Source of the DNA: Amycolatopsis deserti | GTDB taxonomy: Bacteria > Actinomycetota > Actinomycetes > Mycobacteriales > Pseudonocardiaceae | Direction: 5' to 3' | DNA: 64,000 nucleotides | Assembly: GCF_014653945.1 (NCBI RefSeq) | Contig: NZ_BNAU01000002.1 | Span: 925,914-989,913 of the forward strand | Shown: positions 48,259-64,000 of the stretch, one piece after another | How the letters are laid out: every line of letters begins with the position of its first letter | Position numbering within the stretch: the stretch's first letter is position 1 | Position numbers and translations under genes: made by a program | Notes under the pieces: generated by a model | Database searches by the model: none | What the model was told of the DNA's origin: nothing | What the model saw: only the letters and a program-made list of their open reading frames with translations

Positions 48259-49758
48259 TCAGAGCGCGACGTTGACGGCTTTGGTCTGGGTGTAGAGATC
48301 GATGGCCTCGGCGCCGAGCTCGCGGCCCCAGCCGGACTGCTTGTACCCGCCGAACGGGATCGCGGTGTCGAAGCCGTTGTAGCAGTTGACCCACACCGAA
48401 CCGGCCTTGATCTGCTTGGCCACCCGGTGCGCCTTGGAGATGTCCCGCGTCCAAATGCCGGCGGCCAGGCCGTACTCGGTGTCGTTCGCCGCCGCGGCGA
48501 GACCGTCCTCGGCCGAGAACGGGATCGCGGCCACCACCGGGCCGAAGATCTCCTCGCGCACCACGCTCATGTCCTCGCGCACGTCCACCAGCACCGTCGG
48601 CTCGACGTAGTAGCCGGAGTCGCCGTGACGGCCGCCGCCGGTCAGGGCACGGGCGCCGTCGGCGAGGCCCTGCCGCAGGTAGCTGGTGACGCGGTCGAGC
48701 TGCTCCTGCGACACGAGCGGGCCGAGCTGCGTCGTCGGGTCCAGGCCCGGGCCGATCTTGACCTGGCTGGCGAACTCGGCGACGCCCTGCGTGAACTCGT
48801 CGAAGATGGACTCCTCGACGAACAACCGCGTGCCGGCCACACAGCACTGGCCGTGGTTGAACAGCCAGGCGTTGGCCGAGCCGGGGATCGCGGCCTCCAG
48901 GTCGGCGTCGGCGAACACGATGTTGGGGCTCTTGCCGCCCAGCTCCAGCGACACCTTCTTCAGGTTGCCCTTGGCCGCGTCCACGATCTTCTTGCCCACC
49001 TCGGTGGAGCCGGTGAACGCGACCTTGTCGACGTCGTCGTGCGCGGCCAGCGCGGCGCCCGCGTCACCGAACCCGGTGAGGATGTTGACCACGCCGTCCG
49101 GGAACCCGGCCTCGCAGAACAGCTCGCCCAGCAGCAGCGCGGTGAGCGGGGTCTGCTCGGCCGGCTTGAGGATGACCGTGTTGCCGGCCGCGAGCGCGGG
49201 CGCGAGCTTGAACGCGGCCATCACCAGCGGGAAGTTCCACGGGATGATCTGCGCGCACACGCCGACCGGTTCCCGCAGCGTGTACGCGTGCCACTGGCTG
49301 CCCGGGATCCACGGCACCGAAGGGGTGATCGTGCGGCCCTCGATCTTGGTGGCCCACCCCGCGTAGTAGTGGAAGATGTCGGCCGACCAGGCGACGTCGA
49401 CCCCCTGCGCGACGGCCACGGACTTGCCGTTGTCGAGCGCCTCCAGCTGCGCGAACTGCTCGGCGCGCTCCAGCAGCAGGTCACCCACGCGCCAGATCAG
49501 GCGCTGCCGCTCCGACGGGGTGGTGCGCGACCACGGCCCGTCCTCGAACGCGCGCCGCGCCGCGGCCACCGCGCGGTCGACGTCCTCGGCGGCGCCGTGC
49601 GCCACCTCGGTGATCTTCTCCCCCGTGGCGGGGTCGAACGTGGGGAACGTCCGGCCCGACGCCGCGTTCACCCACTGCCCGCCGATCAGCAGCCGCTTGG
49701 TCCCGGACACGAACTCCCGCACCGCCGGATGCACGGCCTGCTCCGCTACCGCAGTCAC
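48259..49758 (-). CDS. Aldehyde dehydrogenase (NAD-dependent)
   Basis: 499 residues from a GTG at 49758 with GAGGAGG upstream. I-P-W-N-F-P-L near 165, F-T-G-S-T-E-V-G near 243, E-L-G-G-K-S-P-N near 265 (general base Glu) and G-Q-C-C-V-A-G-T near 297-304 (catalytic Cys). Closest in spelling to the acetaldehyde/betaine-type dehydrogenases found with AcoR-like activators. First gene of the aldehyde/alcohol dehydrogenase operon; a perfect 21-bp palindrome lies 57 bases upstream. Confidence 0.93.
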   Translation of the reverse strand: MTAVAEQAVHPAVREFVSGTKRLLIGGQWVNAASGRTFPTFDPATGEKITEVAHGAAEDVDRAVAAARRAFEDGPWSRTTPSERQRLIWRVGDLLLERAEQFAQLEALDNGKSVAVAQGVDVAWSADIFHYYAGWATKIEGRTITPSVPWIPGSQWHAYTLREPVGVCAQIIPWNFPLVMAAFKLAPALAAGNTVILKPAEQTPLTALLLGELFCEAGFPDGVVNILTGFGDAGAALAAHDDVDKVAFTGSTEVGKKIVDAAKGNLKKVSLELGGKSPNIVFADADLEAAIPGSANAWLFNHGQCCVAGTRLFVEESIFDEFTQGVAEFASQVKIGPGLDPTTQLGPLVSQEQLDRVTSYLRQGLADGARALTGGGRHGDSGYYVEPTVLVDVREDMSVVREEIFGPVVAAIPFSAEDGLAAAANDTEYGLAAGIWTRDISKAHRVAKQIKAGSVWVNCYNGFDTAIPFGGYKQSGWGRELGAEAIDLYTQTKAVNVAL

Positions 49759-49814
49759 ACCAACCTCCTCGTCGTGGACGTGGCGGTAATGGTGACCTGC
49801 GCAACAGCGAGCTA

Positions 49815-49835
49815 ACTGTGTCAAGTTGACACAGT
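49815..49835. promoter_or_regulatory. Perfect 21-bp palindrome controlling the dehydrogenase operon
   Basis: Ten-base arms ACTGTGTCAA and TTGACACAGT around one G, between the divergent aldehyde dehydrogenase and DoxX-like genes. Long TGTGTC/GACACA dyads are the style of sites for AcoR-type Fis-helix activators, and one such gene is encoded 0.4 kb away. The site is 57 bases before the aldehyde dehydrogenase start. Confidence 0.75.
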
Positions 49836-50219: not shown

Positions 50220-51827
50220 TCAGCTCAGCCCGAGGCTGCGCACCCGGCGGTGCAGGGTCGAGCGGCTGATGCCGAGCAGCTTCGCGGCGTGGGCCTTGTT
50301 CCCGCCGCAGTCCCGCAGCGCGGCGGCGATCGCGTCGTGTTCGAGTTGCTCGATCGGCGTCAGGTGACGTGCTTTCGGGCTGCCCTGGTAGGCCTCCGGG
50401 AGGTCACGCGGCAGCACGTCACCACAGGCCCGGCCGGCCGCGATGTGCCGCAGCAGCGCCTTCAGCTCACGCAGGTTGCCCGGCCACGGCTGCGCGGCCA
50501 GCACCTCCAGCGTGCGCGGCACGAACCGGAGCGTGGACCCGATCTCCGCCAGCATCGCCGCGACCAGGGCCGGCAGCTCGTCCCGGCGGGACCGCAGCGG
50601 AGGCAGCTCGCGGCGGGCGATGCAGCGGCTGGCGAGGTCCGCGGCGGGGCCGGTCAGCTCGGGCGGCGACGGGCCGGTGAGCGCGACCCAGCAGTCGCCG
50701 CGGTCCATGATCGCGGCGAGCCGGGCGGCGGCGTCGGGCGGCAGCAGCGCGATGTTCTCGACCACCAGCAGCCCGGTGTGGGAGGCGACGAGCTGGTCGA
50801 GGGTGGGCGCCCAGTGCTGGGCGTCGACGGCGTCGAGCACCGCCAGTGCCGACTCGCCGGCGAGCTCGCGGGCCACGGTCGAGCGGCCGGTGCCGGGTTC
50901 GCCGCTGATCAACACGTGCGTGCGCTGCTCGCGGTAGGTCGCGAAGTCGCGCTGCACCGGGCGCGGGGTGACGCGGCGCGGAATCGCCTGCACCGCGGGC
51001 GGTTCCAGCTCGAACAGCACGCCGGAGGCGCCGGTGATGCGCTCGAACGACACGTCCGCGACCCGGCCGGAGGACAGCCGCACGCTGCGCGCCTGCCGTA
51101 CGCCGAACGGCGCGTCCATCGCGAGCCCGCGCAGCACGGCGTGGTCGGCGGCGTCGAGCAGGTCGGTGGCCGCGGCGTTGGCGAGCACGACGTCGTCGCC
51201 CAGCACGAGGACCGGGCGCAGGCGGTTGAGGGCGGCGGCCTGGTAGGCGGCGAGCATGCGCTGCTCGGCGGCGCGCGAGCCCTCCAGCAGGCGCTGCTCG
51301 ATGTCGGCGACCGCGCGGCGCAGGAACGGGCCCAGCAGCGGGTTCGCGTGATCGGCCAGGCAGGTGATGTCGAGGACGCCTTCGAGCCGGCGGGTCACCG
51401 GGTGGGTGATCGGGTGGCCGTAGCAGGCGAAGGGCTTGAAGCTGTCGATGAAGTGCTCGTGCCCGTGCACGGCCAGGCCCTGGCGCAGCTCGAACACGGT
51501 CGCGATCGAGTTGGTGCCGGTGTTCTCCTCGGTGAAGCGGGTGCCGGGCACCACGCCGATGCGGTCGAAGGTGGCTTCCAGCCGGCGCTCACCGAAGCGG
51601 CGGTCGACGATCCAGGCGTCACGATCGGCCAGGACGAGGCCGAACGCGGTGTCGGCGAGCTCGCGGGTGGCCTGGTCGAGGACGGGTTCGGCGGCGAGGA
51701 CGAGCCTGCTCCGACGGTCGATGTCCTCGACGGTCAGCCGGTCGACGGCGGCGTCCGGCCGCAGCCCGGACAGCTCGGCCCGCCGCCACGACGACGCGAT
51801 CTCGGGCCGCAGCGCTGCGCTCTCCAT
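50220..51827 (-). CDS. AcoR/MimR-like GAF-AAA-Fis activator without GAFTGA loop
   Basis: 535 residues from an ATG with GGGAGG upstream. N-terminal R-P-E-I-A-S-S-W-R-R-A-E-L-S-G-L and GAF region (about 60-200: T-E-E-N-T-G-T-N-S-I-A-T), then an AAA-type core from about 290 with Walker A G-E-P-G-T-G-R-S-T, a weakened Walker B (L-L-V-V-E-N-I), P-W-P-G-N-L-R-E-L-K near 450 and a C-terminal Fis helix-turn-helix (N-K-A-H-A-A-K-L-L-G-I-S-R-S-T-L-H-R-R). No GAFTGA motif for sigma-54 contact is present, in line with actinomycetes lacking sigma-54. Probable activator of the adjacent dehydrogenase operon. Confidence 0.88.
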   Translation of the reverse strand: MESAALRPEIASSWRRAELSGLRPDAAVDRLTVEDIDRRSRLVLAAEPVLDQATRELADTAFGLVLADRDAWIVDRRFGERRLEATFDRIGVVPGTRFTEENTGTNSIATVFELRQGLAVHGHEHFIDSFKPFACYGHPITHPVTRRLEGVLDITCLADHANPLLGPFLRRAVADIEQRLLEGSRAAEQRMLAAYQAAALNRLRPVLVLGDDVVLANAAATDLLDAADHAVLRGLAMDAPFGVRQARSVRLSSGRVADVSFERITGASGVLFELEPPAVQAIPRRVTPRPVQRDFATYREQRTHVLISGEPGTGRSTVARELAGESALAVLDAVDAQHWAPTLDQLVASHTGLLVVENIALLPPDAAARLAAIMDRGDCWVALTGPSPPELTGPAADLASRCIARRELPPLRSRRDELPALVAAMLAEIGSTLRFVPRTLEVLAAQPWPGNLRELKALLRHIAAGRACGDVLPRDLPEAYQGSPKARHLTPIEQLEHDAIAAALRDCGGNKAHAAKLLGISRSTLHRRVRSLGLS

Positions 51828-54551: not shown

Positions 54552-57377
54552 TTAGGCGTCATCGCCGTCCAGTGCTCGCGCCAGTACCTGCGCCAGGTGC
54601 AGCGCCTGCCGTCCGGTGAGGTCGTCGATCTGGGTGCGGCAGCTGAAGCCGTCCGCGAGGACCATCGTGTCCTCCGGCGCGGCCTCCACCTCCGGCACCA
54701 GCACCCGCCGCGCCGCGGCGACCGACACCTCGTAGTGCCCCTTCTCCACGCCGAAGTTCCCGGCCAGCCCGCAGCACCCGGAGTCCAGCGTCCGGTTGTC
54801 CACCCCCACCCGCCGCAACAACCGCTCGTCCGCCGCATTGCCCATCACCGCGTGTTGATGGCAGTGCTGTTGCGTGATCGCCGACGCCTCGACCGCCGGG
54901 AACTCCACATCCGGCGCGTACTTCTCCAGGAACTCCGCCAGCGTGAACACCTGCGACGGCAGCCCGTGCAGCTCGCCGTCGTCCAGCAGCTCCCGCGAGT
55001 CGTGCCGGAACACCGCCAGGCAGCTCGGCTCCAGGCCCACGATCGGCGTGCCCGCCTCGAGTTCCGGCCGCAGCACCCGCAACGTCCGCCGCAGCACCCG
55101 CCGCGCCACGTCGAGCTGCCCGGTCGAGATCCAGGTCAGCCCGCAGCACACCGACGACGACGGCAGCACGACGTCGAACCCGGCGTGCTCCAGCACCCGC
55201 ACCGCGTCGTGCCCGACCTCGGGCGACAGGAAGTTCGTGAACGTGTCCGGCCACAGCACCACGCGCGGCCGCCCCTGCTCCCGCGCAGAGAATCCGCGCC
55301 GGAACGTCCGCGGCGCGAACCGCGGCAGCGACCGCTCCGGCGTGATCCCGCCCGCCTTCTTCACCAGCCCGGACAACCGCCCGCCCAGCACCCGGTTCGC
55401 CAGCCGCGGCGCCGCCGACGCCAGCCGCGCCAGCACCGGCAGGAAACCGAGCGTGTAGTGGCTCGCCGGGCGCAGCCGTCCCTTGTAGTGCTGGTGCAGG
55501 AACTCCGCCTTGTACGAGGCCATGTCCACATTGACCGGACAGTCGGACAGGCATCCCTTGCACGCCAGGCACAAATCCAGTGCCTCGAGCACCTCGGTCG
55601 ACCGCCACCCGTCGGTGACCGTCTCCCCGCGCATCATCTCGAACAACAGGTGCGACCGCCCGCGCGTGGAGTGCTCCTCGCGCCCGGTGACCATGTAGCT
55701 CGGGCACATCACGCCGGACGATTTGTCGACACAGGCCCCGACGCCGACGCACCGCCGGGTCGCGGTCGCGAGGCTGCCGCCGTCGTGCGGGTACTTCAGC
55801 GTGATCGGCAGCGACCGCACCGGCCCGTCGAACCGCAGGTCCGCGTCGAGTTTCCGGGGCCGCACCAGGTTGCCGGGGTTGAGCAGGTCGCCGGGGTCCC
55901 AGATCGCCTTGAACCGCTCGAACAGCGCCAGGATCTCCGGCGGGTACATCCGGGACAGCAGCTCGGCACGCGCCTGCCCGTCGCCGTGCTCGCCGGACAG
56001 CGAACCGCCGTGCCGCACCACGAGATCCGCCGCGTCCTCCATGAACGCCCGGAACTGCCGCCGGCCGTCCTCGGTGGTCAGGCCGAAGTTGATGCGCACG
56101 TGCACGCAGCCCTCGCCGAAGTGTCCATACGGGACACCCCGCAGCCCGTACTTCCCCAGCAGGGTCCGGAAATCCCGGAGGTACACGCCGAGGTTCGCGG
56201 GCGGCACAGCGGAGTCCTCCCACCCCGGCCACGCCTCGGACCCGTCCGGCATGCGGGTCACGATCCCGGCCGCGGCCTCGCGCACCGACCACAGCACCCG
56301 CTGGTCGGCCGGCCGCGTCTCCACCACGGTCGCCGCGCCGGTGTCCCGCTCCAGGACAGCCGCGACCTCGGCCGCCCGCGCCGCCGCCTCGGCCGGATCC
56401 GCTCCCCCGACCTCGACGAACAACCATCCGCGCCCGGCGGGCAGCAGGTCGACCGCCGGGTGGGACCGCCGCGTCAGCAGCGAGTCGATCAGGTCGCGGC
56501 CCATGCCCTCGACGGTCAGCGGCTTCAACGGCAGCACCGACGGCACCGCGTCGGCGGCCGCGATGTCGTCGGCGTAGCCCGCGACGACCAGCGCACGAGC
56601 CGCGGGAGCGGGCACCAGTCGCACGGTGATCTCGGTCAGCAGCACGCACGTGCCCTCGGTGCCGACCAGCGCGCGCACCAGGTTGGTGCCGTTCTCCGGC
56701 AGCAGCTGGTCCAGCGCGTACCCGGACACCCGCCGCGGGATCGACGGGAACGACGTGCGCAGCAGCGCCAGGTGGTCCAGCGCGAGCTGCTTCGACGCGG
56801 CCACGCGCGGATCGTCCGGCAGCGACTCCCCGATCGTCAGCCGCGTCCCGTCCGCGGTCAGCACGTCCAGCGCGACCACGTTGTCCGCGGTCCGCCCCCA
56901 CGCCACCGAATGCGAGCCGCACGCGTCGTTGCCGACCATGCCGCCGATCGTGCAGCGGCTGTGGGTCGACGGGTCCGGCCCGAACGTCAGACCGTGCGGC
57001 GCGGCCGCCGCACGCAACGCGTCCAGCACCACCCCGGGCTGCACACGCGCGGTGCGCGCCTGCGGATCGATCTCCAGCACCCGGTTCAGGTGCCGGGTGT
57101 AGTCGATCACCACGCCCTCGCCGAGCGCCTGCCCGCCGATGCTGGTGCCCGCGCCGCGCGCGGTGATGGGGATCCGGAACTCCCGGCACAGCCGGACGGT
57201 CGCCTCCAGATCCTCCACAGTAGACGGGAACACGACGGCCAGCGGCACGTGCCGGTAGTTCGACGCGTCCATGCTGTAGGTCGCGCGTGCCGTCGTGCCG
57301 GACTCCACCTCACCGGTGAGCGCGCGGCCCAGCTCCGCCAGGAACCGGGCCACCCGCTCGTCCGCGACCACCGTCAT
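54552..57377 (-). CDS. FAD/Fe-S D-2-hydroxyacid dehydrogenase (YdiJ-like; candidate D-2-hydroxyglutarate dehydrogenase)
   Basis: 941 residues. N-terminal VAO-type FAD domain: P-I-T-A-R-G-A-G-T-S-I-G-G-Q-A-L near 70-85 and I-G-G-M-V-G-N-D-A-C-G-S-H-S near 143-156. Middle FAD-oxidase C domain with E-H-G-D-G near 475. C-terminal Fe-S/CCG part: C-V-G-V-G-A-C near 555, C-L-A-C-K-G-C-L-S-D-C-P near 615-626, two C-C-G motifs (S-V-C-C-G-L near 745, S-G-C-C-G-L-A-G near 880). The YdiJ group oxidises D-2-hydroxyglutarate or D-lactate to the electron-transfer chain. Co-transcribed with FmdB, HOT and lactonase genes, which favours D-2-hydroxyglutarate. Confidence 0.88.
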   Translation of the reverse strand: MTVVADERVARFLAELGRALTGEVESGTTARATYSMDASNYRHVPLAVVFPSTVEDLEATVRLCREFRIPITARGAGTSIGGQALGEGVVIDYTRHLNRVLEIDPQARTARVQPGVVLDALRAAAAPHGLTFGPDPSTHSRCTIGGMVGNDACGSHSVAWGRTADNVVALDVLTADGTRLTIGESLPDDPRVAASKQLALDHLALLRTSFPSIPRRVSGYALDQLLPENGTNLVRALVGTEGTCVLLTEITVRLVPAPAARALVVAGYADDIAAADAVPSVLPLKPLTVEGMGRDLIDSLLTRRSHPAVDLLPAGRGWLFVEVGGADPAEAAARAAEVAAVLERDTGAATVVETRPADQRVLWSVREAAAGIVTRMPDGSEAWPGWEDSAVPPANLGVYLRDFRTLLGKYGLRGVPYGHFGEGCVHVRINFGLTTEDGRRQFRAFMEDAADLVVRHGGSLSGEHGDGQARAELLSRMYPPEILALFERFKAIWDPGDLLNPGNLVRPRKLDADLRFDGPVRSLPITLKYPHDGGSLATATRRCVGVGACVDKSSGVMCPSYMVTGREEHSTRGRSHLLFEMMRGETVTDGWRSTEVLEALDLCLACKGCLSDCPVNVDMASYKAEFLHQHYKGRLRPASHYTLGFLPVLARLASAAPRLANRVLGGRLSGLVKKAGGITPERSLPRFAPRTFRRGFSAREQGRPRVVLWPDTFTNFLSPEVGHDAVRVLEHAGFDVVLPSSSVCCGLTWISTGQLDVARRVLRRTLRVLRPELEAGTPIVGLEPSCLAVFRHDSRELLDDGELHGLPSQVFTLAEFLEKYAPDVEFPAVEASAITQQHCHQHAVMGNAADERLLRRVGVDNRTLDSGCCGLAGNFGVEKGHYEVSVAAARRVLVPEVEAAPEDTMVLADGFSCRTQIDDLTGRQALHLAQVLARALDGDDA

Positions 57378-57742
57378 GAAGCCGAATCCCCCGGTACCGG
57401 GTCACCGGCCCGCAGGGGCGCGGCGGCGAACCGGCCCTCGTGGGCGAGCACCGGGCGGCGGTCGCCGGCCAGCTCCGGGTACTTCTGCTCCAGTTTCTCC
57501 CGCCGGGTCATCTGACGGTGCCAGTGCCGCACCGTCTCCCGGTCGCCGTTGCCGGTGCCGCGCCAGCTCTTCGGCGCGTCGTCCCGGCTGGGACCGGCCG
57601 AGGCGACCCCGCCGAGCCGCACCGCGGGCGGCAGCCGGTGCGGCACCGACCCGCACCCGCAGGCCGGGGCGGGCGAGGAGAACGACGGCACGAGCGCCTC
57701 GAACCGGTTCCCGCACTCACAGGAATAGTCGTAGATCGGCAT
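57374..57742 (-). CDS. FmdB-family zinc-ribbon protein
   Basis: 122 residues, ATGA overlap with the dehydrogenase. N-terminal ribbon M-P-I-Y-D-Y-S-C-E-C-G-N-R-F-E-A, then C-G-C-G-S near 28-32, gives two Cys pairs for one Zn. The remainder is charged and probably disordered with a helix R-R-E-K-L-E-Q-K-Y. FmdB proteins are small regulators or chaperone-like partners first noted beside formamidase. Its place between HOT and the Fe-S dehydrogenase suggests a helper role. Confidence 0.85.
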   Translation of the reverse strand: MPIYDYSCECGNRFEALVPSFSSPAPACGCGSVPHRLPPAVRLGGVASAGPSRDDAPKSWRGTGNGDRETVRHWHRQMTRREKLEQKYPELAGDRRPVLAHEGRFAAAPLRAGDPVPGDSAS

Positions 57743-57746
57743 CGGC

Positions 57747-59024
57747 TCACCAGTTCTCGATCGACTGGGCGAAGATCGCCTCGAGGTCCTCGGCCCGCAC
57801 CGGCCGGGGTGAGATCGTCAGCAGCCGCTCCTGCTTGAGCGTGCCCTCGACCAGATCCCCGATGTCGCTCTCGTCGTAGCCGACGCCGCCGATCCCGTTC
57901 GGCGTGCCGATGTCGCGCATCAGCGACGACAGCACGAACGGCAGCTGGTCCACCGCGTCGTGCTGCTTCGGCGCGTGCGGGTCGAGGATCCGCGCGGCCC
58001 GCAGGTGCTTCTCCGGGTTCGTCGGGAACGTGAACCGGAACGCGGCCGGCGCGGTCAGCGACACCGACTCGCCGTGCGGGACCATGGCCTCGTCCTGCGG
58101 GTAGTTCTTCGGCCGGTACTCCTTGACCCGCCCGGCGATCGGGTAGGCGCAGGCGTGCGGGATGTGCACGCCCGCGTTGCCGAAGCCCATGCCGGCGAAG
58201 GTCGCGGCCAGCATCATGTCCGTGCGCGCCGCGAGGTCGCCGCCGTTGAGCACGGCCTTGCGGAACGACCGGGCCAGCAACGTCAGCGCCTGCTCGGTCC
58301 AGGCGTCGGAGATCGGGTTCGCCCCGCAGTAGGCGACGCGGGTTTCCGCGCGGTGCCGCGGGAAGGAGTCGAACGGCTTGGCCGTGTAGGACTCCAGGGC
58401 GTGGCACAGCACGTCCATGCCGCTGGCCGCGGTGACCTCGGGCGGCATGCTCAGCGTGAGCAGCGGGTCGACGACCGCCATCGTGGGCCGCAGCCGCGGG
58501 TGGCTGATACCGGACTTCACCTTCAGGTCGAGGAAGTCCATGATGCACACCGGCGTCGTCTCCGAGCCGGTGCCCGCGGTGGTCGGCACCGCGACCAGCG
58601 GCTTGAGCGGCCCGGCAGGCGCCTTGCCCTGCCCGATCGGCTTGTTGACGTAGTCGTAGAGGTCGGCCGGGTAGGTGGTCATCAGGTTGATGGCCTTGGC
58701 GGTGTCGATCGACGAGCCGCCGCCGACGGCGATGAACCCGTCCCACTCCGACTGCTTGGCGAAGTCCACCGCGGCCTGGATGCTCACGTCGGTCGGTTCG
58801 ACGTGCACCTGGTCGTAGACCTCGACGGTCAGCCCGCCGGCCTTGGCGGCGTCGGCGACCCGCTGCGGCACGCCGGTCGCGGCGACGCCCGGGTCGGTGA
58901 CGATGAGGACCCGCTCCGCGCCCATCTGCGCCAGGTCCCAGCCGATCTCGTCGACGGCGCCCGCGCCGAACTTCAGCGGCGTGGCGCCCCAGGTGAAGAC
59001 TGTTTCGTTGAGGTATTCGGTCAT
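57747..59024 (-). CDS. Iron-containing alcohol dehydrogenase, hydroxyacid-oxoacid transhydrogenase (ADHFE1-like)
   Basis: 425 residues from the ATG at 59024 (GAAAGG upstream). Group III fold: G-G-G-S-S-I-D-T-A-K near 102-111 and P-T-T-A-G-T-G-S-E-T-T near 149 for NAD; iron ligands in A-S-G-M-D-V-L-C-H-A-L-E near 210 (Asp, His) and V-H-I-P-H-A-C-A-Y near 290 (His). P-x-x-W-x-x-A-L...in N-P-I-S-D-A-W-T-E-Q-A-L and length match the HOT/ADHFE1 branch, which moves hydride from 4-hydroxybutyrate to 2-oxoglutarate, giving succinic semialdehyde and D-2-hydroxyglutarate. Confidence 0.88.
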   Translation of the reverse strand: MTEYLNETVFTWGATPLKFGAGAVDEIGWDLAQMGAERVLIVTDPGVAATGVPQRVADAAKAGGLTVEVYDQVHVEPTDVSIQAAVDFAKQSEWDGFIAVGGGSSIDTAKAINLMTTYPADLYDYVNKPIGQGKAPAGPLKPLVAVPTTAGTGSETTPVCIMDFLDLKVKSGISHPRLRPTMAVVDPLLTLSMPPEVTAASGMDVLCHALESYTAKPFDSFPRHRAETRVAYCGANPISDAWTEQALTLLARSFRKAVLNGGDLAARTDMMLAATFAGMGFGNAGVHIPHACAYPIAGRVKEYRPKNYPQDEAMVPHGESVSLTAPAAFRFTFPTNPEKHLRAARILDPHAPKQHDAVDQLPFVLSSLMRDIGTPNGIGGVGYDESDIGDLVEGTLKQERLLTISPRPVRAEDLEAIFAQSIENW

Positions 59025-59035
59025 GCCCGTGCCTT

Positions 59036-59842
59036 TCAGCCGAAGTGCCCGTCGGGGGCGAACGGGAGTTTGGCGGCCTGGTCCGGGTCGTGCCCGAAGA
59101 TCACCTCGGCGTTGGTTTCCTCGGCGATGCGGCGCAGCTTCTCCACCGACTCCAGCCAGCGCACGCTGTCCCAGACGATCGCGGCGCCGATCGCCGGCGG
59201 GCCCCAGCTCTCGCCGAGGTAGACGGCGTCGGAGGTGAAGATCTTGGTGCCCGCCTCCGGCAGGTCCACCCGCAGGGACATCGTCCCCCAGGTGTGGCCC
59301 GGTGTCTCGATGACGCTGACGCCCGGCGCGATTTCGGCGTCCCCGGAGACCAGTTCGTAGTCGATGCCCTCGTAGTCGACCTTGAGGTGGGCGCCCTTGA
59401 ACGGCCCGTCGATGCCGAGCGCGCCCTCGTGCTCGTCGCGGTTGACGATGATCCGCGTCTTCCCGTTGTCGAACAGCTTCGCGTTCGCGGCGTGGTCGAA
59501 GTGCAGGTGGGACAGCACGAGCACGTCGATGTCGTCCGGCGTCAGCTCCAGCGCGGCCAGCGAGTCCTGCAGGTAGGTGGTGCCCTCCTGGACCGGGAAG
59601 AACTCCTGCAGCCCGGTCGGCGCCCAGCGGGTCTCCCAGTCCTGCGGGACGCCGGTGTCCCACAGGATGCGCCCGTCCGGGTGCTCGATGAGCACCGCGT
59701 GGGTCGGGCAGGTCGTCCACACCGCTTCCTTGCGGGTGTTCGAGCGGTCGGTGATCGTCGCACCCGGCTTGAGAAGCAGCCAGGTCTGGTCGCACTCCAT
59801 GGTTCCGGTCTTGAGCAGGTGGACCTTGCTCGGTGCCGTCAT
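59036..59842 (-). CDS. Metallo-beta-lactamase-fold lactonase (AttM/AiiB-like)
   Basis: 268 residues from the ATG at 59842 with AAGGAGG upstream. Metal motif [11 protein letters not shown] near 113-123, H-T-W-G near 190 and a distal Asp in F-T-S-D-A-V-Y near 214; H in F-G-H-D-P-D near 250. N-terminal [12 protein letters not shown] matches the AttM lactonase group. AttM opens gamma-butyrolactone as well as N-acylhomoserine lactones. First gene of the lactonase-HOT-fmdB-dehydrogenase operon, supporting gamma-butyrolactone to 4-hydroxybutyrate. Confidence 0.88.
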
Positions 59843-59903: not shown

Positions 59904-60614
59904 TCAATGGCGGGGGTAGCCGGTCCACTCCAACGAGACCGGCGGCACCGGGTCTCCGCTGGCCGCGGCCTCCTGCCCGATCAGCAGACGGCCGGTGTGC
60001 AGCAGGTGGGCGCGCATGGATTCGGCCGCCTCTTCGGCCTTGCCCGCCTCGATGAGCGTGAAGATCTCCTCGTGCTCGGCGAGGATGTCGTCCAGGCTGC
60101 GCGAGGTGTCGACGGTGGAGGTGCCGCGCAGCAGGACCATGTCCCGCAGCGAGTCGATGTAGCGGGCGAGCCGCAGGTTGCCGGACGCCTCGTTGATGAT
60201 CTCGTGGAAGCGCCGGTCGGCGGCCATGAAGGTGGCCTCGTCGTGCTTCTCCGCGGCGGCGCGCATCGCCTTGAGCTGGGCGCCCAGCTCCTTCACCCAG
60301 GCCGCGGTGCGCTGGGTGACGGCGCGGTAGGTCGCCGGGACCTCGAGCAGCAGCCGGATCGCGAAGACCTCCTCCAGGTCGTGCAGGGACGTCTGGAGGA
60401 TCCGCACGCCCCGGTTGCGTTCGAACCGCACCATGCCGCGTTCGGCCAGCTGGATCAGCGCCTCGCGCACCGGCGTCCGCGACACGCCGAGCCGCTCGGC
60501 GAGGTCGTGCACCGAGTACAGGCTGCCCGCGACGAGCTCGCCGTTGACGATGGCGGTCTTGAGCTCGTCGAGGATCTTCCCGGCGAGGTTGGCGTCGTTC
60601 CCGATCTGCCGCAT
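59904..60614 (-). CDS. GntR-family regulator, FCD/FadR type
   Basis: 236 residues. Winged helix near 8-75: I-L-D-E-L-K-T-A-I-V-N-G-E-L...Y-S-V-H-D-L-A-E-R-L-G-V-S-R-T-P-V-R-E-A-L-I-Q-L. The FCD domain (about 85-215) has the metal-binding Asp/His set: D-R-R-F-H-E-I-I-N near 135, E-H-E-E-I-F near 185 and M-R-A-H-L-L-H-T near 208. Such regulators sense a carboxylate. Transcribed with, or just before, the lactonase-HOT operon, so likely sensing 4-hydroxybutyrate or a related acid. The first Fe-S subunit gene is divergent. Confidence 0.9.
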   Translation of the reverse strand: MRQIGNDANLAGKILDELKTAIVNGELVAGSLYSVHDLAERLGVSRTPVREALIQLAERGMVRFERNRGVRILQTSLHDLEEVFAIRLLLEVPATYRAVTQRTAAWVKELGAQLKAMRAAAEKHDEATFMAADRRFHEIINEASGNLRLARYIDSLRDMVLLRGTSTVDTSRSLDDILAEHEEIFTLIEAGKAEEAAESMRAHLLHTGRLLIGQEAAASGDPVPPVSLEWTGYPRH

Positions 60615-60700
60615 CCGGGCATTTTCCCATGTCCCGGAAAACCCGGCCCCGGCCGACGTGCTCCGGTTTCGGCGCGGCCGCGCCGGGTACGCCCCACGTC

Positions 60701-61204
60701 ATGGACGCGGAGATCACCTTGCGTGTCGACGGCGCCACCCACCGGCTGACGCTCGACAGCCGCACCACCCTCCTGGACGCCCTGCGCGAACGGCTCGGCA
60801 TCACCAGCCCCAAGAAGGGCTGCGACCACGGCCAGTGCGGCGCCTGCACGGTCCTGGTCGGCGGCCGCCGGGTCCTGTCGTGCCTGTCGCTGGCCGTCGC
60901 GCAGAACGGGGCCGAGGTCACCACCGCCGCGGGGCTCGCGCCCGGCGACGAACTGCACCCGGTGCAGCGCGCGTTCCTGCAGCACGACGGGTTCCAGTGC
61001 GGCTACTGCACGCCGGGCCAGATCTGTTCCGCCGTGGGGATGCTGGACGAGGTCAAGCAGGGCTGGCCCAGCCACGCGAGCCCGGACGTGAGCGCCCGCC
61101 CCGCCCTGACGCGCGCGGAGATCGCCGAGCGGATGAGCGGCAACCTGTGCCGGTGCGCCGCCTACGCGGGCATCGTCGGCGCGATCGAGGAGGCGGCCGA
61201 GTGA
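60701..61204 (+). CDS. Molybdenum aldehyde oxidoreductase, [2Fe-2S] subunit (PaoA-like)
   Basis: 167 residues from the ATG at 60701. Plant-type ferredoxin Cys set K-G-C-D-H-G-Q-C-G-A-C near 42-52 with a fourth Cys in V-L-S-C-L near 66. The second all-helical cluster is C-G-Y-C-T-P-G near 105 and C-R-C-A-A-Y near 150. No twin-arginine leader is seen, so this enzyme is cytoplasmic unlike E. coli PaoA. First gene of a coupled three-gene operon, divergent from gntR. Confidence 0.9.
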   Translation: MDAEITLRVDGATHRLTLDSRTTLLDALRERLGITSPKKGCDHGQCGACTVLVGGRRVLSCLSLAVAQNGAEVTTAAGLAPGDELHPVQRAFLQHDGFQCGYCTPGQICSAVGMLDEVKQGWPSHASPDVSARPALTRAEIAERMSGNLCRCAAYAGIVGAIEEAAE

Positions 61205-62172
61205 AGCCGTTCACCTACGACTCCCCCGCCGACGCCGCCACCGCCGTCCGCACCGTCGCCGCCGACCCGTCGGCCGTGTTCCTGGCCGGCGGCACGAACC
61301 TGGTCGACCACCTCAAGCTCGGCATCGCCCGCCCGGGACGGCTCGTCGACGTCACCCACCTGACGTCGAGCGAGATCACCGAGCGCGACGGCGTGCTCTC
61401 GATCGGCGCCGGGGTGCGCAACAGCGACCTGGCCGCCGACCCACGCATCCGGTCGCGCTACCCGGTGCTGGCCGAGTCGCTGCTCGCCGGGGCCTCCGGG
61501 CAGCTGCGCAACATGGCCACCACCGGTGGGAACCCGTTGCAGCGCACGCGGTGCGTGTACTTCCAGGACGTCACGACGCCGTGCAACAAGCGCGAGCCCG
61601 GCTCCGGCTGCTCGGCGATCGGCGGCTACACCCGCTACCACGCCATCCTCGGCGCCTCCGAGCACTGCGTCGCCACGCACCCCTCGGACCTGGCGGTCGC
61701 GCTGGCCGCGCTCGACGCCGAGGTGCGCGTGCTCGGCCCGGACGGCGAACGCACGATCCCGTTCACCGAACTGCACCGCCTGCCCGGCGACTCGCCGGAG
61801 CGGGACACCGTGCTGGAGCACGGCGACCTGATCACCTCGATCGACCTGCCGGCCCCGGGCGCGGCCCGGCAGCGCTACCGCAAGGTCCGCGACCGCGCGT
61901 CCTACGCGTTCGCGCTGGTGTCGGTGGCCGCGCTGCTGCGGGTCGAGGACGGCGTGGTCGCCGACGCGCGGATCGCGTTCGGCGGGGTCGCGCACAAACC
62001 GTGGCGCGCCTGGCAGGCCGAGGACGTGCTGCGCGGCGCGCCCGCCACCGAGGACACGTTCCGCGCGGCCGCCGCCGAAGAGCTGGCGCAGGCCCGGCCG
62101 TTGCCCGGCAACGAGTTCAAGGTCCCGCTGCTGACCCGAACCCTCGTCTCCGTGCTCCGGGAGCTGTCATGA
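61201..62172 (+). CDS. Molybdenum aldehyde oxidoreductase, FAD subunit with extra [4Fe-4S] (PaoB-like)
   Basis: 323 residues from a GTG overlapping the small-subunit stop (GTGA). FAD site F-L-A-G-G-T-N-L-V-D near 25-34 and M-A-T-T-G-G-N-P-L-Q near 103. Uniquely for PaoB/4-hydroxybenzoyl-CoA-reductase-type subunits, a Cys-rich loop follows: R-C-V-Y-F-Q-D...C-N-K-R-E-P-G-S-G-C near 115-138, the extra [4Fe-4S] site. Electrons run from Mo via Fe-S to FAD. Confidence 0.92.
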   Translation: MKPFTYDSPADAATAVRTVAADPSAVFLAGGTNLVDHLKLGIARPGRLVDVTHLTSSEITERDGVLSIGAGVRNSDLAADPRIRSRYPVLAESLLAGASGQLRNMATTGGNPLQRTRCVYFQDVTTPCNKREPGSGCSAIGGYTRYHAILGASEHCVATHPSDLAVALAALDAEVRVLGPDGERTIPFTELHRLPGDSPERDTVLEHGDLITSIDLPAPGAARQRYRKVRDRASYAFALVSVAALLRVEDGVVADARIAFGGVAHKPWRAWQAEDVLRGAPATEDTFRAAAAEELAQARPLPGNEFKVPLLTRTLVSVLRELS

Positions 62173-64000
62173 CCGCGATCGGTGAGCCGCTGGTGCGGCG
62201 GGACGGTGCGCGCAAGGTCACCGGCACCGCCACCTACGCCTACGAGACCCCGGCCGACGCGCCGGTGTTCTGCCACCCCGTCCAGGCCACCGTGGCGCGC
62301 GGCCGGATCGCCGCGATCCACACCGCCGAGGCCGAGATGCTCGACGGCGTGCTGGACGTCATCACCTACCGCTCCGCGGAACGGCTGGCGTCCACACAGG
62401 ACGCCGAGCTGGCCGTGCTGCAGGACCGCGAGGTGGCCTTCCGCGGTCAGGTGATCGGCCTGGTGGTCGCGCGCACCTCGGAGATCGCGCGGCACGGCGC
62501 GGAGCTGGTGTTCGCGACCTACGACCAGCGCGAGCACGACACCGAGCTGGCCGCGGATCGCGACGACCTGTACAAACCGGACAAGGTCAACCCGGCGTTC
62601 CCCACCGACACCGCGACCGGGGACCTCGACGCGGCGATGGCCTCCGCGGACGTGACGGTCGAGCAGACCTACCGGACCGCGATGTACCACAACAACCCGC
62701 TGGAGCCGCACGCGACGACGGCGTTGTGGGAAGACGACGTGCTGACGCTGTGGGACTCGACGCAGGGCGTGCACCCGTCGCGTCAGACGATCGCGAAGGT
62801 GTTCGGCCTGCCCGAGGAGCGGGTGCGGGTGGTGTGCCCGTACGTCGGCGGCGGGTTCGGGTCCAAGGGCCTGCCGCACGCGAACGTGGTACTGGCCGCG
62901 ATGGCCGCGCGGGCGCACCCGGGACGGCCGGTGAAGCTCGCGCTGACGCGGCAGCAGATGTTCTCGCTGGCCGGGTACCGGACGCCGACGATCCAGAGGA
63001 TGCGGCTCGGCGCGACCCGCGACGGCAGGCTGACCGCGATCGGGCTGGACGTGGTCGAGCAGACTTCGCGGATCAAGGAGTTCGCGGAACAGACCGCGTT
63101 GCCGTCGCGCATGATGTACGCCGCCCCCAACCGCCGCACGACGCACCGGCTGGCCGCGCTGGACGTGCCGGTGCCGTCGTGGATGCGGGCGCCCGGCGAG
63201 TGCCCCGGCATGTTCGGGCCCGAGGTGGCGATGGACGAGCTGGCCTACGAGCTGGGCATCGATCCGGTGGAGCTGCGGGTGCGCAACGAGCCCGAAGCCG
63301 ACCCGGAGTCGGGCCGGCCGTTCTCCAGCCGTCACCTGGTGGAGTGCCTGCGCGAGGGCGCCCGGCGGTTCGGCTGGGCCTCGCGGGACCCGCGGCCGGG
63401 CGTGCGTCTGGAGGACGGCTGGCTGGTCGGCACCGGGGTCGCGTCGTCGGTGTACCCGTCGTCGACCCGGCCGGGGTCGACCGCGGTGGTGCGGTTCGAG
63501 AGCGGCCGGTACGCGGTGGAGATCGGCGCCGCGGACCTGGGGACTGGCGCGTGGACGGTGCTGCCGCAGATCGCCGCGGAGGCCCTCGGCGTGCCGGTCG
63601 AGGAGATCGACATGCGCCTGGGCGACACGGCGTACCCGGTCGCGGCGGTGGCCGGCGGGTCGATGGGCACCGCGACCTGGGGTTCGGCGGTGTTCGAGGC
63701 GGCACGCACGTTCCGCGACAAGTTCGGCCGCGACCCCGCCGACGGCGACGAGGCCGACGCGACGACCGGGGACACCCCGGCGCGCAAGGAGTACGCGATG
63801 TACGCGTTCGGCGCGCAGTTCGCCGAGGCGCGGGTGCACGCGGACACCGGCGAGATCCGGGTGCCGCGGCTGCTCGGGGTGTTCGCCGCCGGGCGGATCG
63901 TCAACCCGCGGACCGCGCGGTCGCAGTTCCTCGGCGGCATGACGATGGGGCTGTCCATGGCGCTGCACGAGGAGAGCGTGTGGGACCCGCGGTTCGGGCA
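62169..64000 (+). CDS. Molybdenum aldehyde oxidoreductase, molybdopterin subunit (PaoC-like), partial
   Basis: At least 610 residues, starting at an ATG overlapping the FAD-subunit stop (ATGA) and running past the right end. G-G-G-F-G-S-K near 225 and the Mo-site loop W-M-R-A-P-G-E near 338-344 are present. Later G-T-A-T-W-G-S near 500 is the second Mo segment. The catalytic Glu near the C-terminus is beyond the window. Oxidises aldehydes (broad aromatic range in PaoABC) to acids. An XdhC/PaoD-type cofactor chaperone may follow outside. Confidence 0.92.
   Translation, partial: MTAIGEPLVRRDGARKVTGTATYAYETPADAPVFCHPVQATVARGRIAAIHTAEAEMLDGVLDVITYRSAERLASTQDAELAVLQDREVAFRGQVIGLVVARTSEIARHGAELVFATYDQREHDTELAADRDDLYKPDKVNPAFPTDTATGDLDAAMASADVTVEQTYRTAMYHNNPLEPHATTALWEDDVLTLWDSTQGVHPSRQTIAKVFGLPEERVRVVCPYVGGGFGSKGLPHANVVLAAMAARAHPGRPVKLALTRQQMFSLAGYRTPTIQRMRLGATRDGRLTAIGLDVVEQTSRIKEFAEQTALPSRMMYAAPNRRTTHRLAALDVPVPSWMRAPGECPGMFGPEVAMDELAYELGIDPVELRVRNEPEADPESGRPFSSRHLVECLREGARRFGWASRDPRPGVRLEDGWLVGTGVASSVYPSSTRPGSTAVVRFESGRYAVEIGAADLGTGAWTVLPQIAAEALGVPVEEIDMRLGDTAYPVAAVAGGSMGTATWGSAVFEAARTFRDKFGRDPADGDEADATTGDTPARKEYAMYAFGAQFAEARVHADTGEIRVPRLLGVFAAGRIVNPRTARSQFLGGMTMGLSMALHEESVWDPRFG

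Follow-up and report, generated by a model that had tools for sequence, protein, structure and literature searches.

A GntR-associated operon of Amycolatopsis deserti predicted to oxidize gamma-butyrolactone and 4-hydroxybutyrate through a hydroxyacid-oxoacid transhydrogenase and a flavin/iron-sulfur dehydrogenase

The operon and its genes

A 64,000-nucleotide stretch of the Amycolatopsis deserti genome (contig NZ_BNAU01000002.1, positions 925,914 to 989,913; hereafter the window) carries four tightly spaced genes that encode a lactonase of the metallo-beta-lactamase (MBL) fold, an iron-dependent alcohol dehydrogenase (Fe-ADH) of the hydroxyacid-oxoacid transhydrogenase (HOT) subfamily, an FmdB-family zinc-ribbon protein, and a large flavin/iron-sulfur (FAD/Fe-S) dehydrogenase; a gene for a GntR-family regulator lies upstream. 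Together these genes are considered, with moderate confidence, to be a GntR-controlled operon that oxidizes gamma-butyrolactone and 4-hydroxybutyrate, with the HOT and FAD/Fe-S enzymes predicted to act as an electron shuttle. The features, in window coordinates, are:

59904..60614, minus strand: GntR-family regulator with an FCD domain (Pfam), 236 residues
59882..59900, minus strand: putative operator GTAGCATGCTACATGCCAC in the gap between the GntR and lactonase genes, 39 bases ahead of the lactonase ATG
59036..59842, minus strand: AhlS/GcL-like lactonase of the MBL fold, 268 residues, with HxHxDH and further metal-ligand positions intact
57747..59024, minus strand: HOT-subfamily Fe-ADH, 425 residues, with inserts of 17 and 13 residues
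57374..57742, minus strand: FmdB-family zinc-ribbon protein, 122 residues, which goes with the lactonase in relatives and has no histidine-rich tail
54552..57377, minus strand: FAD and 4Fe-4S/CCG 2-hydroxyacid dehydrogenase, 941 residues, of YdiJ-like architecture; probable D-2-hydroxyglutarate dehydrogenase

A preliminary description of this DNA had placed four coupled genes at 54552-59842; their positions, on the minus strand, and their families are confirmed. The lactonase ATG is preceded by AAGGAGG; the Fe-ADH gene starts 11 bases past the lactonase stop, the FmdB gene begins 4 bases further downstream of the Fe-ADH gene, and the FAD/Fe-S gene overlaps the FmdB gene by 4 bases (ATGA), spacing that suggests co-transcription. 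Pfam assigns Lactamase_B to the lactonase, Fe-ADH and ADH_Fe_C to the iron enzyme, Zn_ribbon_8 to FmdB, and FAD_binding_4, FAD-oxidase_C, Fer4 and CCG to the large dehydrogenase. The GntR/FCD gene (60614-59904) is an addition to the four genes first described; a gap of 61 bases separates its end from the lactonase start codon, and it is probably part of the same transcription unit.

Gene neighborhood in relatives

The neighborhood was compared at 80 loci, the best 80 of at least 587 HOT relatives from one scan of a genome collection, of which nine end early at contig edges. Neighbors were counted by tblastn with a bit-score floor of 60 (80 for FmdB), because a simple gene caller fused some genes, including the lactonase and HOT genes of the window. 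Lactonase and FmdB genes lie on the same strand beside HOT at 21 of the 80 loci, neither ever without the other; the FAD/Fe-S gene is found just downstream of HOT at 26. The whole quartet is present at eight loci, and HOT with the FAD/Fe-S gene but no lactonase at 18. The four genes are thus a recurrent cluster, and the co-occurrence in relatives on which the preliminary description had been made to depend is observed. Further whole quartets occur in one genome of the same genus (G138) and in two of another family (G245 and G333); the placement of the latter two hints at horizontal transfer of a cassette. The G245 and G333 loci also carry a GntR gene, and their individual genes share 69-87% identity with the window counterparts.

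Within the order, where a limited number of candidates was scored in each of 150 genomes and counts are uncorrected for kinship, HOT (E <= 1e-100) is present in 49 genomes; the FAD/Fe-S enzyme, at the same threshold, is encoded somewhere in 42 of these 49 genomes and in 52 of the 101 without HOT (Fisher p 3e-5). On a HOT tree the quartet label requires five changes and the trio label six; almost every shuffled labeling needs more, yet these numbers are a long way from a single origin.

At several Nocardioidaceae-type loci (L070, L086, L091, L094 and L111), pairs of HOT and FAD/Fe-S genes without a lactonase lie near genes identified by eye as encoding ribosomal proteins, so the pair may have a housekeeping function at these loci.

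The HOT-type iron alcohol dehydrogenase

The HOT subfamily (cd08190) is distinguished by a 19-residue and a 13-residue insert (human numbering) that other Fe-ADHs lack (PMC5125639). Aligned with FucO, the window Fe-ADH has inserts of 17 (219-235) and 13 residues (302-314), which are shared by the HOT proteins of Rhodococcus ruber, M. dioxanotrophicus, R. pseudokoreensis and Deinococcus, and are missing from FucO, YiaY, an Agrobacterium Fe-ADH and, as far as aligned, the other Fe-ADHs of the window genome. By this alignment the enzyme is a HOT-subfamily member, in agreement with the ADHFE1-type identity first proposed for it. The metal-ligand residues D204, H208, H290 and H317 are invariant in 30 sequences, as is the NAD-site motif GGGS at 101-104. 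The predicted structure (predicted local distance difference test score, pLDDT, 86) has the Fe-ADH fold. The protein scores 204 bits against the model for NAD-linked 4-hydroxybutyrate dehydrogenase (NF058672; cut-off 500), and none of the 17 NCBIfam models listed for the protein is matched above its cut-off.

The enzyme could instead be an ordinary NAD-linked 4-hydroxybutyrate dehydrogenase, with the FAD/Fe-S enzyme only clearing D-2-hydroxyglutarate or another 2-hydroxyacid that arises elsewhere, and no shuttle between them. The GGGS motif is invariant as in NAD-linked Fe-ADHs, the modeled fold is the common Fe-ADH fold, and the FAD/Fe-S enzyme is widespread without an adjacent HOT gene; the two HOT-specific inserts and the repeated adjacency of HOT and FAD/Fe-S genes (26/80) speak against this alternative, which is considered unlikely. 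NAD may still take part: the "NAD-independent" oxidation proposed earlier is too strong a term, because the animal HOT is proposed to pass the hydride via NAD.

The FAD/Fe-S dehydrogenase

The active-site residues of human D-2-hydroxyglutarate dehydrogenase have been mapped, with Lys401 and Asn443 binding the C5-carboxyl (PMC7801405). Equivalents of human R386, H434, H441, E475 and H476 are present in the window enzyme, in 27/27 homologues and in E. coli YdiJ. The human-type Lys401/Asn443 pair is replaced: the Lys401 position is Trp in the window enzyme and Ala in YdiJ, while the Asn443 position is Arg in the window enzyme, all 27 homologues and YdiJ, and is not Arg in the aligned D-lactate dehydrogenase, glycolate oxidase and LctD chains. 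Position 432 is Tyr, as in the human enzyme. The kept catalytic residues and the Arg at 443 make a dicarboxylate 2-hydroxyacid a plausible substrate.

The enzyme had been called YdiJ-like, which holds for its architecture, for its catalytic residues and for the Arg at 443; the YdiJ model matches the flavin half of the protein, and the Fe-S portion can also be aligned. Equivalog membership does not hold, as the protein scores 461 bits against NF049975 (cut-off 1350), and it further differs from YdiJ in a shorter Fe-S linker and in the Trp in place of Ala. A role as D-lactate or glycolate dehydrogenase would agree with the top solved relatives by sequence (D-lactate dehydrogenase and glycolate oxidase), with the substituted Lys401 and with an M. 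dioxanotrophicus pair near glyoxylate genes; the Arg at 443 shared with YdiJ, the Tyr at 432 shared with the human enzyme and the gene pairing with HOT speak against such a role, which is judged improbable. A second FAD/Fe-S dehydrogenase, 51% identical, is encoded elsewhere in the window genome (G000:C1:77305-80202, L121).

The lactonase and FmdB

The lactonase scores 102 bits against the AttM/BlcC family (NF045700; cut-off 390) and 166 bits against AhlS (NF047976; cut-off 475); AhlS is nearest, and no cut-off is reached among the NCBIfam families listed. The earlier label of AttM-like lactonase is therefore not retained. The closest solved structure is GcL (E 1.7e-45), and H112, H114, D116, H117, H183, D205 and H251, the set of metal ligands expected of MBL lactonases, are invariant in 13 sequences. 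FmdB scores just above the family cut-offs (32.6 vs 31.3 and 36 vs 34.4 bits; TIGR02605, PF09723), which upholds its description as an FmdB zinc ribbon.

Lactonase matches (E <= 1e-25) occur in eight of the 150 genomes of the order; six are close (at least 52% identity), and those of G061 and G079 (37-38% identity) were set aside as weak. FmdB matches (E <= 1e-6) occur in the same six genomes, where the two genes are direct neighbors (three) or flank HOT (three). Among 296 genomes of the class, scored in the same way, a lactonase match at E <= 1e-60 and an FmdB match at E <= 1e-10 mark the same four, all with the gene order lactonase-HOT-FmdB. The co-occurrence of lactonase and FmdB exceeds chance. 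In G002, G018 and G027 the pair has no HOT gene beside it; no whole-genome HOT match at E <= 1e-20 was found in G002 and G018, and in G027 HOT is on a separate contig. Because the pair stands without adjacent HOT in these genomes (3/6), the lactonase is the likelier partner of FmdB. Membership of FmdB in the redox loop is not the first choice, as it tracks the lactonase instead.

Many FmdB homologues have a histidine-rich tail. The 80-locus set holds 21 FmdB genes, of which one is lost to a contig end; 19 of the 20 complete genes have at least three tail histidines, often as GHGHGH; among these 19, the reading frame at L043 is longer than is usual. No tail histidines are found in FmdB of the window, G138, G245, G333, G065, G027 and G002, and two are found in G018. 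A metallochaperone function of FmdB is conjecture; its AlphaFold model is weak (pLDDT 68; predicted template modeling score, pTM, 0.41).

The GntR regulator and the operator-like site

The 19-bp palindrome ahead of the lactonase gene is a putative operator of the GntR protein. When two mismatches are allowed, its consensus GTRGCATGNNACATGCCAC is present at 10 loci of the 80-locus set (five exact, five with two mismatches), and these are exactly the 10 loci with a homologue of the window GntR (at least 60 bits). The site lies upstream of the lactonase or HOT gene in all 10, with a second site further upstream at L051; the reversed consensus is absent from this 1.5 Mb of sequence at the same tolerance. 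L060, with a weaker GntR match (58.9 bits to the R. ruber protein), has no site. In the 7.7-Mb window genome the operator locus is the sole match with up to two mismatches, and the reversed pattern also has one chance match. G138 has one additional two-mismatch site elsewhere, and in G125 and G014, which lack a lactonase match, no operator-like site was found genome-wide.

Plasmid loci and a probable link to cyclic ethers

R. ruber YYL carries, on its plasmid pYYL1.1, genes for GntR, HOT and the FAD/Fe-S enzyme next to an operon that encodes a di-iron monooxygenase and an aldehyde dehydrogenase; GntR and HOT are separated by a transposase. The plasmid GntR is 65% identical to that of the window over 159 residues. 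An exact consensus site lies 28 bases ahead of the EthD-like gene that heads the monooxygenase operon, a second exact site just past GntR on the HOT side, and a weaker site between the two, against a chance mean of 0.16 sites with up to three mismatches in this stretch. The pYYL1.1 HOT groups with that of Pseudonocardia sp. N23 in a Pseudonocardia HOT clade (support 100/97, a grouping at clade level), five of whose nine members come from quartets. The cluster thus shares with the window a similar GntR, the same operator-like site, and the HOT and FAD/Fe-S genes; it differs in that the 31-kb stretch has no annotated lactonase or FmdB and has the di-iron monooxygenase and aldehyde dehydrogenases instead.

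R. ruber YYL is described as a tetrahydrofuran degrader in the title of PMC5702389. The pYYL1.1 record annotates the monooxygenase as methane monooxygenase; the operon is probably, by inference, the tetrahydrofuran monooxygenase of YYL. In the accepted route of tetrahydrofuran breakdown, 4-hydroxybutyrate is reached by way of gamma-butyrolactone or 4-hydroxybutyraldehyde and is converted to succinate (PMC7758286). The association of GntR and its site with both the monooxygenase operon and the HOT and FAD/Fe-S genes favors 4-hydroxybutyrate as the substrate and a 2-oxoglutarate/D-2-hydroxyglutarate shuttle. The proposed gamma-butyrolactone/4-hydroxybutyrate route is supported, at the level of gene and regulatory linkage, by this connection to a probable tetrahydrofuran pathway.

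Among the plasmids, no second copy of the R. ruber-type monooxygenase (at least 60% identity) was found, and the lactonase query matched 175 records, none reaching 60% identity. A plasmid of M. dioxanotrophicus and one of R. pseudokoreensis each carry HOT close to a gene annotated as succinic-semialdehyde dehydrogenase that lies on the opposite strand; on Deinococcus pDrdI, one of three Deinococcus matches inspected, HOT adjoins an annotated AttM.

Another lactone or hydroxyacid, such as a delta-lactone, a substituted gamma-lactone or 3-hydroxypropionate, could enter the same transhydrogenase logic. The C. elegans HOT ortholog HPHD-1 is reported to work on 3-hydroxypropionate (PMC10096224), the lactonase is below every curated cut-off, and lactonase-FmdB pairs also lie among acyl-CoA type genes without adjacent HOT; the orthologous GntR and site with the R. 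ruber monooxygenase operon, in a host that degrades tetrahydrofuran via gamma-butyrolactone and 4-hydroxybutyrate, point away from this option, which is thought rather unlikely though deserving of some weight. A quorum-quenching or signal-degrading operon, in which the lactonase destroys acyl-homoserine lactones or Streptomyces-type butyrolactones, would suit the nearest named families (the quorum-quenching lactonases AhlS and GcL); it is considered very improbable, as the HOT and FAD/Fe-S partners and the monooxygenase-operon link indicate catabolism and BlcC shows that such lactonases can serve gamma-butyrolactone breakdown.

Proposed pathway

In the favored scheme the lactonase would open gamma-butyrolactone to 4-hydroxybutyrate, with FmdB as its dedicated and perhaps metal-handling partner. 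HOT would then move the hydride of 4-hydroxybutyrate, via enzyme-held NAD, to 2-oxoglutarate, yielding succinic semialdehyde and D-2-hydroxyglutarate; the FAD/Fe-S dehydrogenase would regenerate 2-oxoglutarate and pass the electrons to the respiratory chain, and this reoxidation would pull an otherwise unfavorable alcohol oxidation. Such a pull by a flavin enzyme, with electrons reaching quinone, would be expected from textbook redox chemistry. An aldehyde dehydrogenase encoded elsewhere would oxidize succinic semialdehyde to succinate. GntR would sit on the 19-bp palindrome until released by a pathway metabolite. We infer the substrates, direction, electron acceptor, effector and FmdB function of this scheme.

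Several observations weigh against the scheme. At 41 of the 80 HOT loci there is no lactonase, FmdB or FAD/Fe-S neighbor; within the order, HOT and FAD/Fe-S genes are adjacent on one strand, by coordinates, in just 7 of the 49 HOT genomes, and 7 of these 49 lack a strong FAD/Fe-S homologue. Matches to the FAD/Fe-S enzyme at E <= 1e-100 occur in 94 of the 150 genomes, mostly away from HOT, so the enzyme has uses beyond the loop. The nearest HOT relatives of the window, from Prauserella, have the FAD/Fe-S gene but no lactonase or FmdB beside HOT; this and the five quartet changes on the HOT tree indicate an arrangement easily gained and lost. The FAD/Fe-S enzyme scores far too low for the YdiJ family and carries Trp in place of the human Lys401, and the proximity of the M. 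dioxanotrophicus HOT-FAD/Fe-S pair to glyoxylate genes would suit a glycolate role. The lactonase-FmdB pairs without HOT (3/6) sit, as judged by eye, among acyl-CoA type genes, so the lactone need not be gamma-butyrolactone; the FmdB of the window, like that of its own clade, has no histidine tail. The reversed operator control gave seven matches with up to two mismatches in 6 of 10 whole genomes or records; two-mismatch matches at this scale are therefore near chance, and the exact ones count. No succinic-semialdehyde dehydrogenase is found among the coupled genes, and the top candidate in the genome scores 586 bits (cut-off 646).

The closed transhydrogenase loop of the preliminary description is partly supported: the HOT identity and the pairing of HOT with the FAD/Fe-S and lactonase genes favor it, and it falls short in the AttM assignment, YdiJ equivalog membership, the inclusion of FmdB in the loop, and NAD-independence.

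Flanking genes

Divergent molybdenum-hydroxylase genes adjoin GntR at 60629-64000 and continue past the window edge; 2Fe-2S and FAD subunits are present, and the large subunit was recognized by eye. At L075 a molybdenum-hydroxylase-type 2Fe-2S gene also adjoins GntR-HOT-FAD/Fe-S genes, which suggests that a molybdenum hydroxylase might oxidize the aldehyde product. A few kilobases downstream and uncoupled from the operon are an aldehyde dehydrogenase and a regulator (48259-49824 and 50220-51827); the regulator has a Fis-type helix-turn-helix and a weak AAA part, and its top NCBIfam match is DhaR, below cut-off.

Comparison with known systems

In Agrobacterium tumefaciens the three-gene blcABC (attKLM) operon, under the repressor BlcR, converts gamma-butyrolactone to succinate, with 4-hydroxybutyrate and succinic semialdehyde as intermediates (PMC5924552, PMC3907764 and PMC6402643). 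The predicted common ground is a lactonase (BlcC there) in a repressor-controlled operon for gamma-butyrolactone. The window operon differs in its HOT-subfamily dehydrogenase, the added FAD/Fe-S 2-hydroxyacid dehydrogenase and FmdB, the lack of a succinic-semialdehyde dehydrogenase, and a GntR/FCD regulator; this comparison is one of gene content. The window system resembles the blcABC route, with 4-hydroxybutyrate oxidation probably taken over by a transhydrogenase loop of the animal type.

In C. elegans, HPHD-1 makes D-2-hydroxyglutarate while oxidizing 3-hydroxypropionate, with NAD as the proposed hydride shuttle, and DHGD-1 recycles the D-2-hydroxyglutarate so formed (PMC10096224). The same logic fits, by analogy, with 4-hydroxybutyrate. 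The animal ADHFE1/HPHD-1 loop likewise pairs a HOT-subfamily enzyme with a D-2-hydroxyglutarate dehydrogenase (a probable one in the window); the window system is bacterial, lies in a single cluster with a lactonase, has a recycling enzyme with its own Fe-S/CCG part, and would act on a substrate proposed from gene context.

A GntR-family repressor directly ahead of a D-2-hydroxyglutarate dehydrogenase gene is reported from Achromobacter denitrificans (dhdR-d2hgdh; PMC8651671). The window operon is alike in being headed by a GntR-family regulator and in holding a probable D-2-hydroxyglutarate dehydrogenase; the DhdR operator is GTTATCAGATAAC, against GTRGCATGNNACATGCCAC in the window, and the dhdR operon has two genes only.

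No bacterial HOT operon of such design was found in the open-licence PMC literature, covered through titles and abstract openings of the top-ranked matches, with subscription journals mostly outside; within that scope the gene combination is new, while the kinds of components are known. A broader proposal is advanced tentatively, as possible but less than probable: that the bacterial 2-oxoglutarate/D-2-hydroxyglutarate pair would be a dedicated catabolic electron shuttle in one GntR regulon, where lactone opening (lactonase and metal-handling FmdB) and cyclic-ether oxidation would both feed the HOT-FAD/Fe-S module, a cassette moved among Actinobacteria and solvent-degrading plasmids.

The operon, the regulator-site pair and the plasmid cluster point to a specific substrate and a partner that can be tested for a bacterial HOT, an enzyme type whose hydride handover to 2-oxoglutarate has so far been worked out in animals. 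They would explain how a flavin enzyme pulls a poorly favorable alcohol oxidation, suggest a candidate regulator for tetrahydrofuran catabolism, and give the FmdB zinc ribbon a specific partner.

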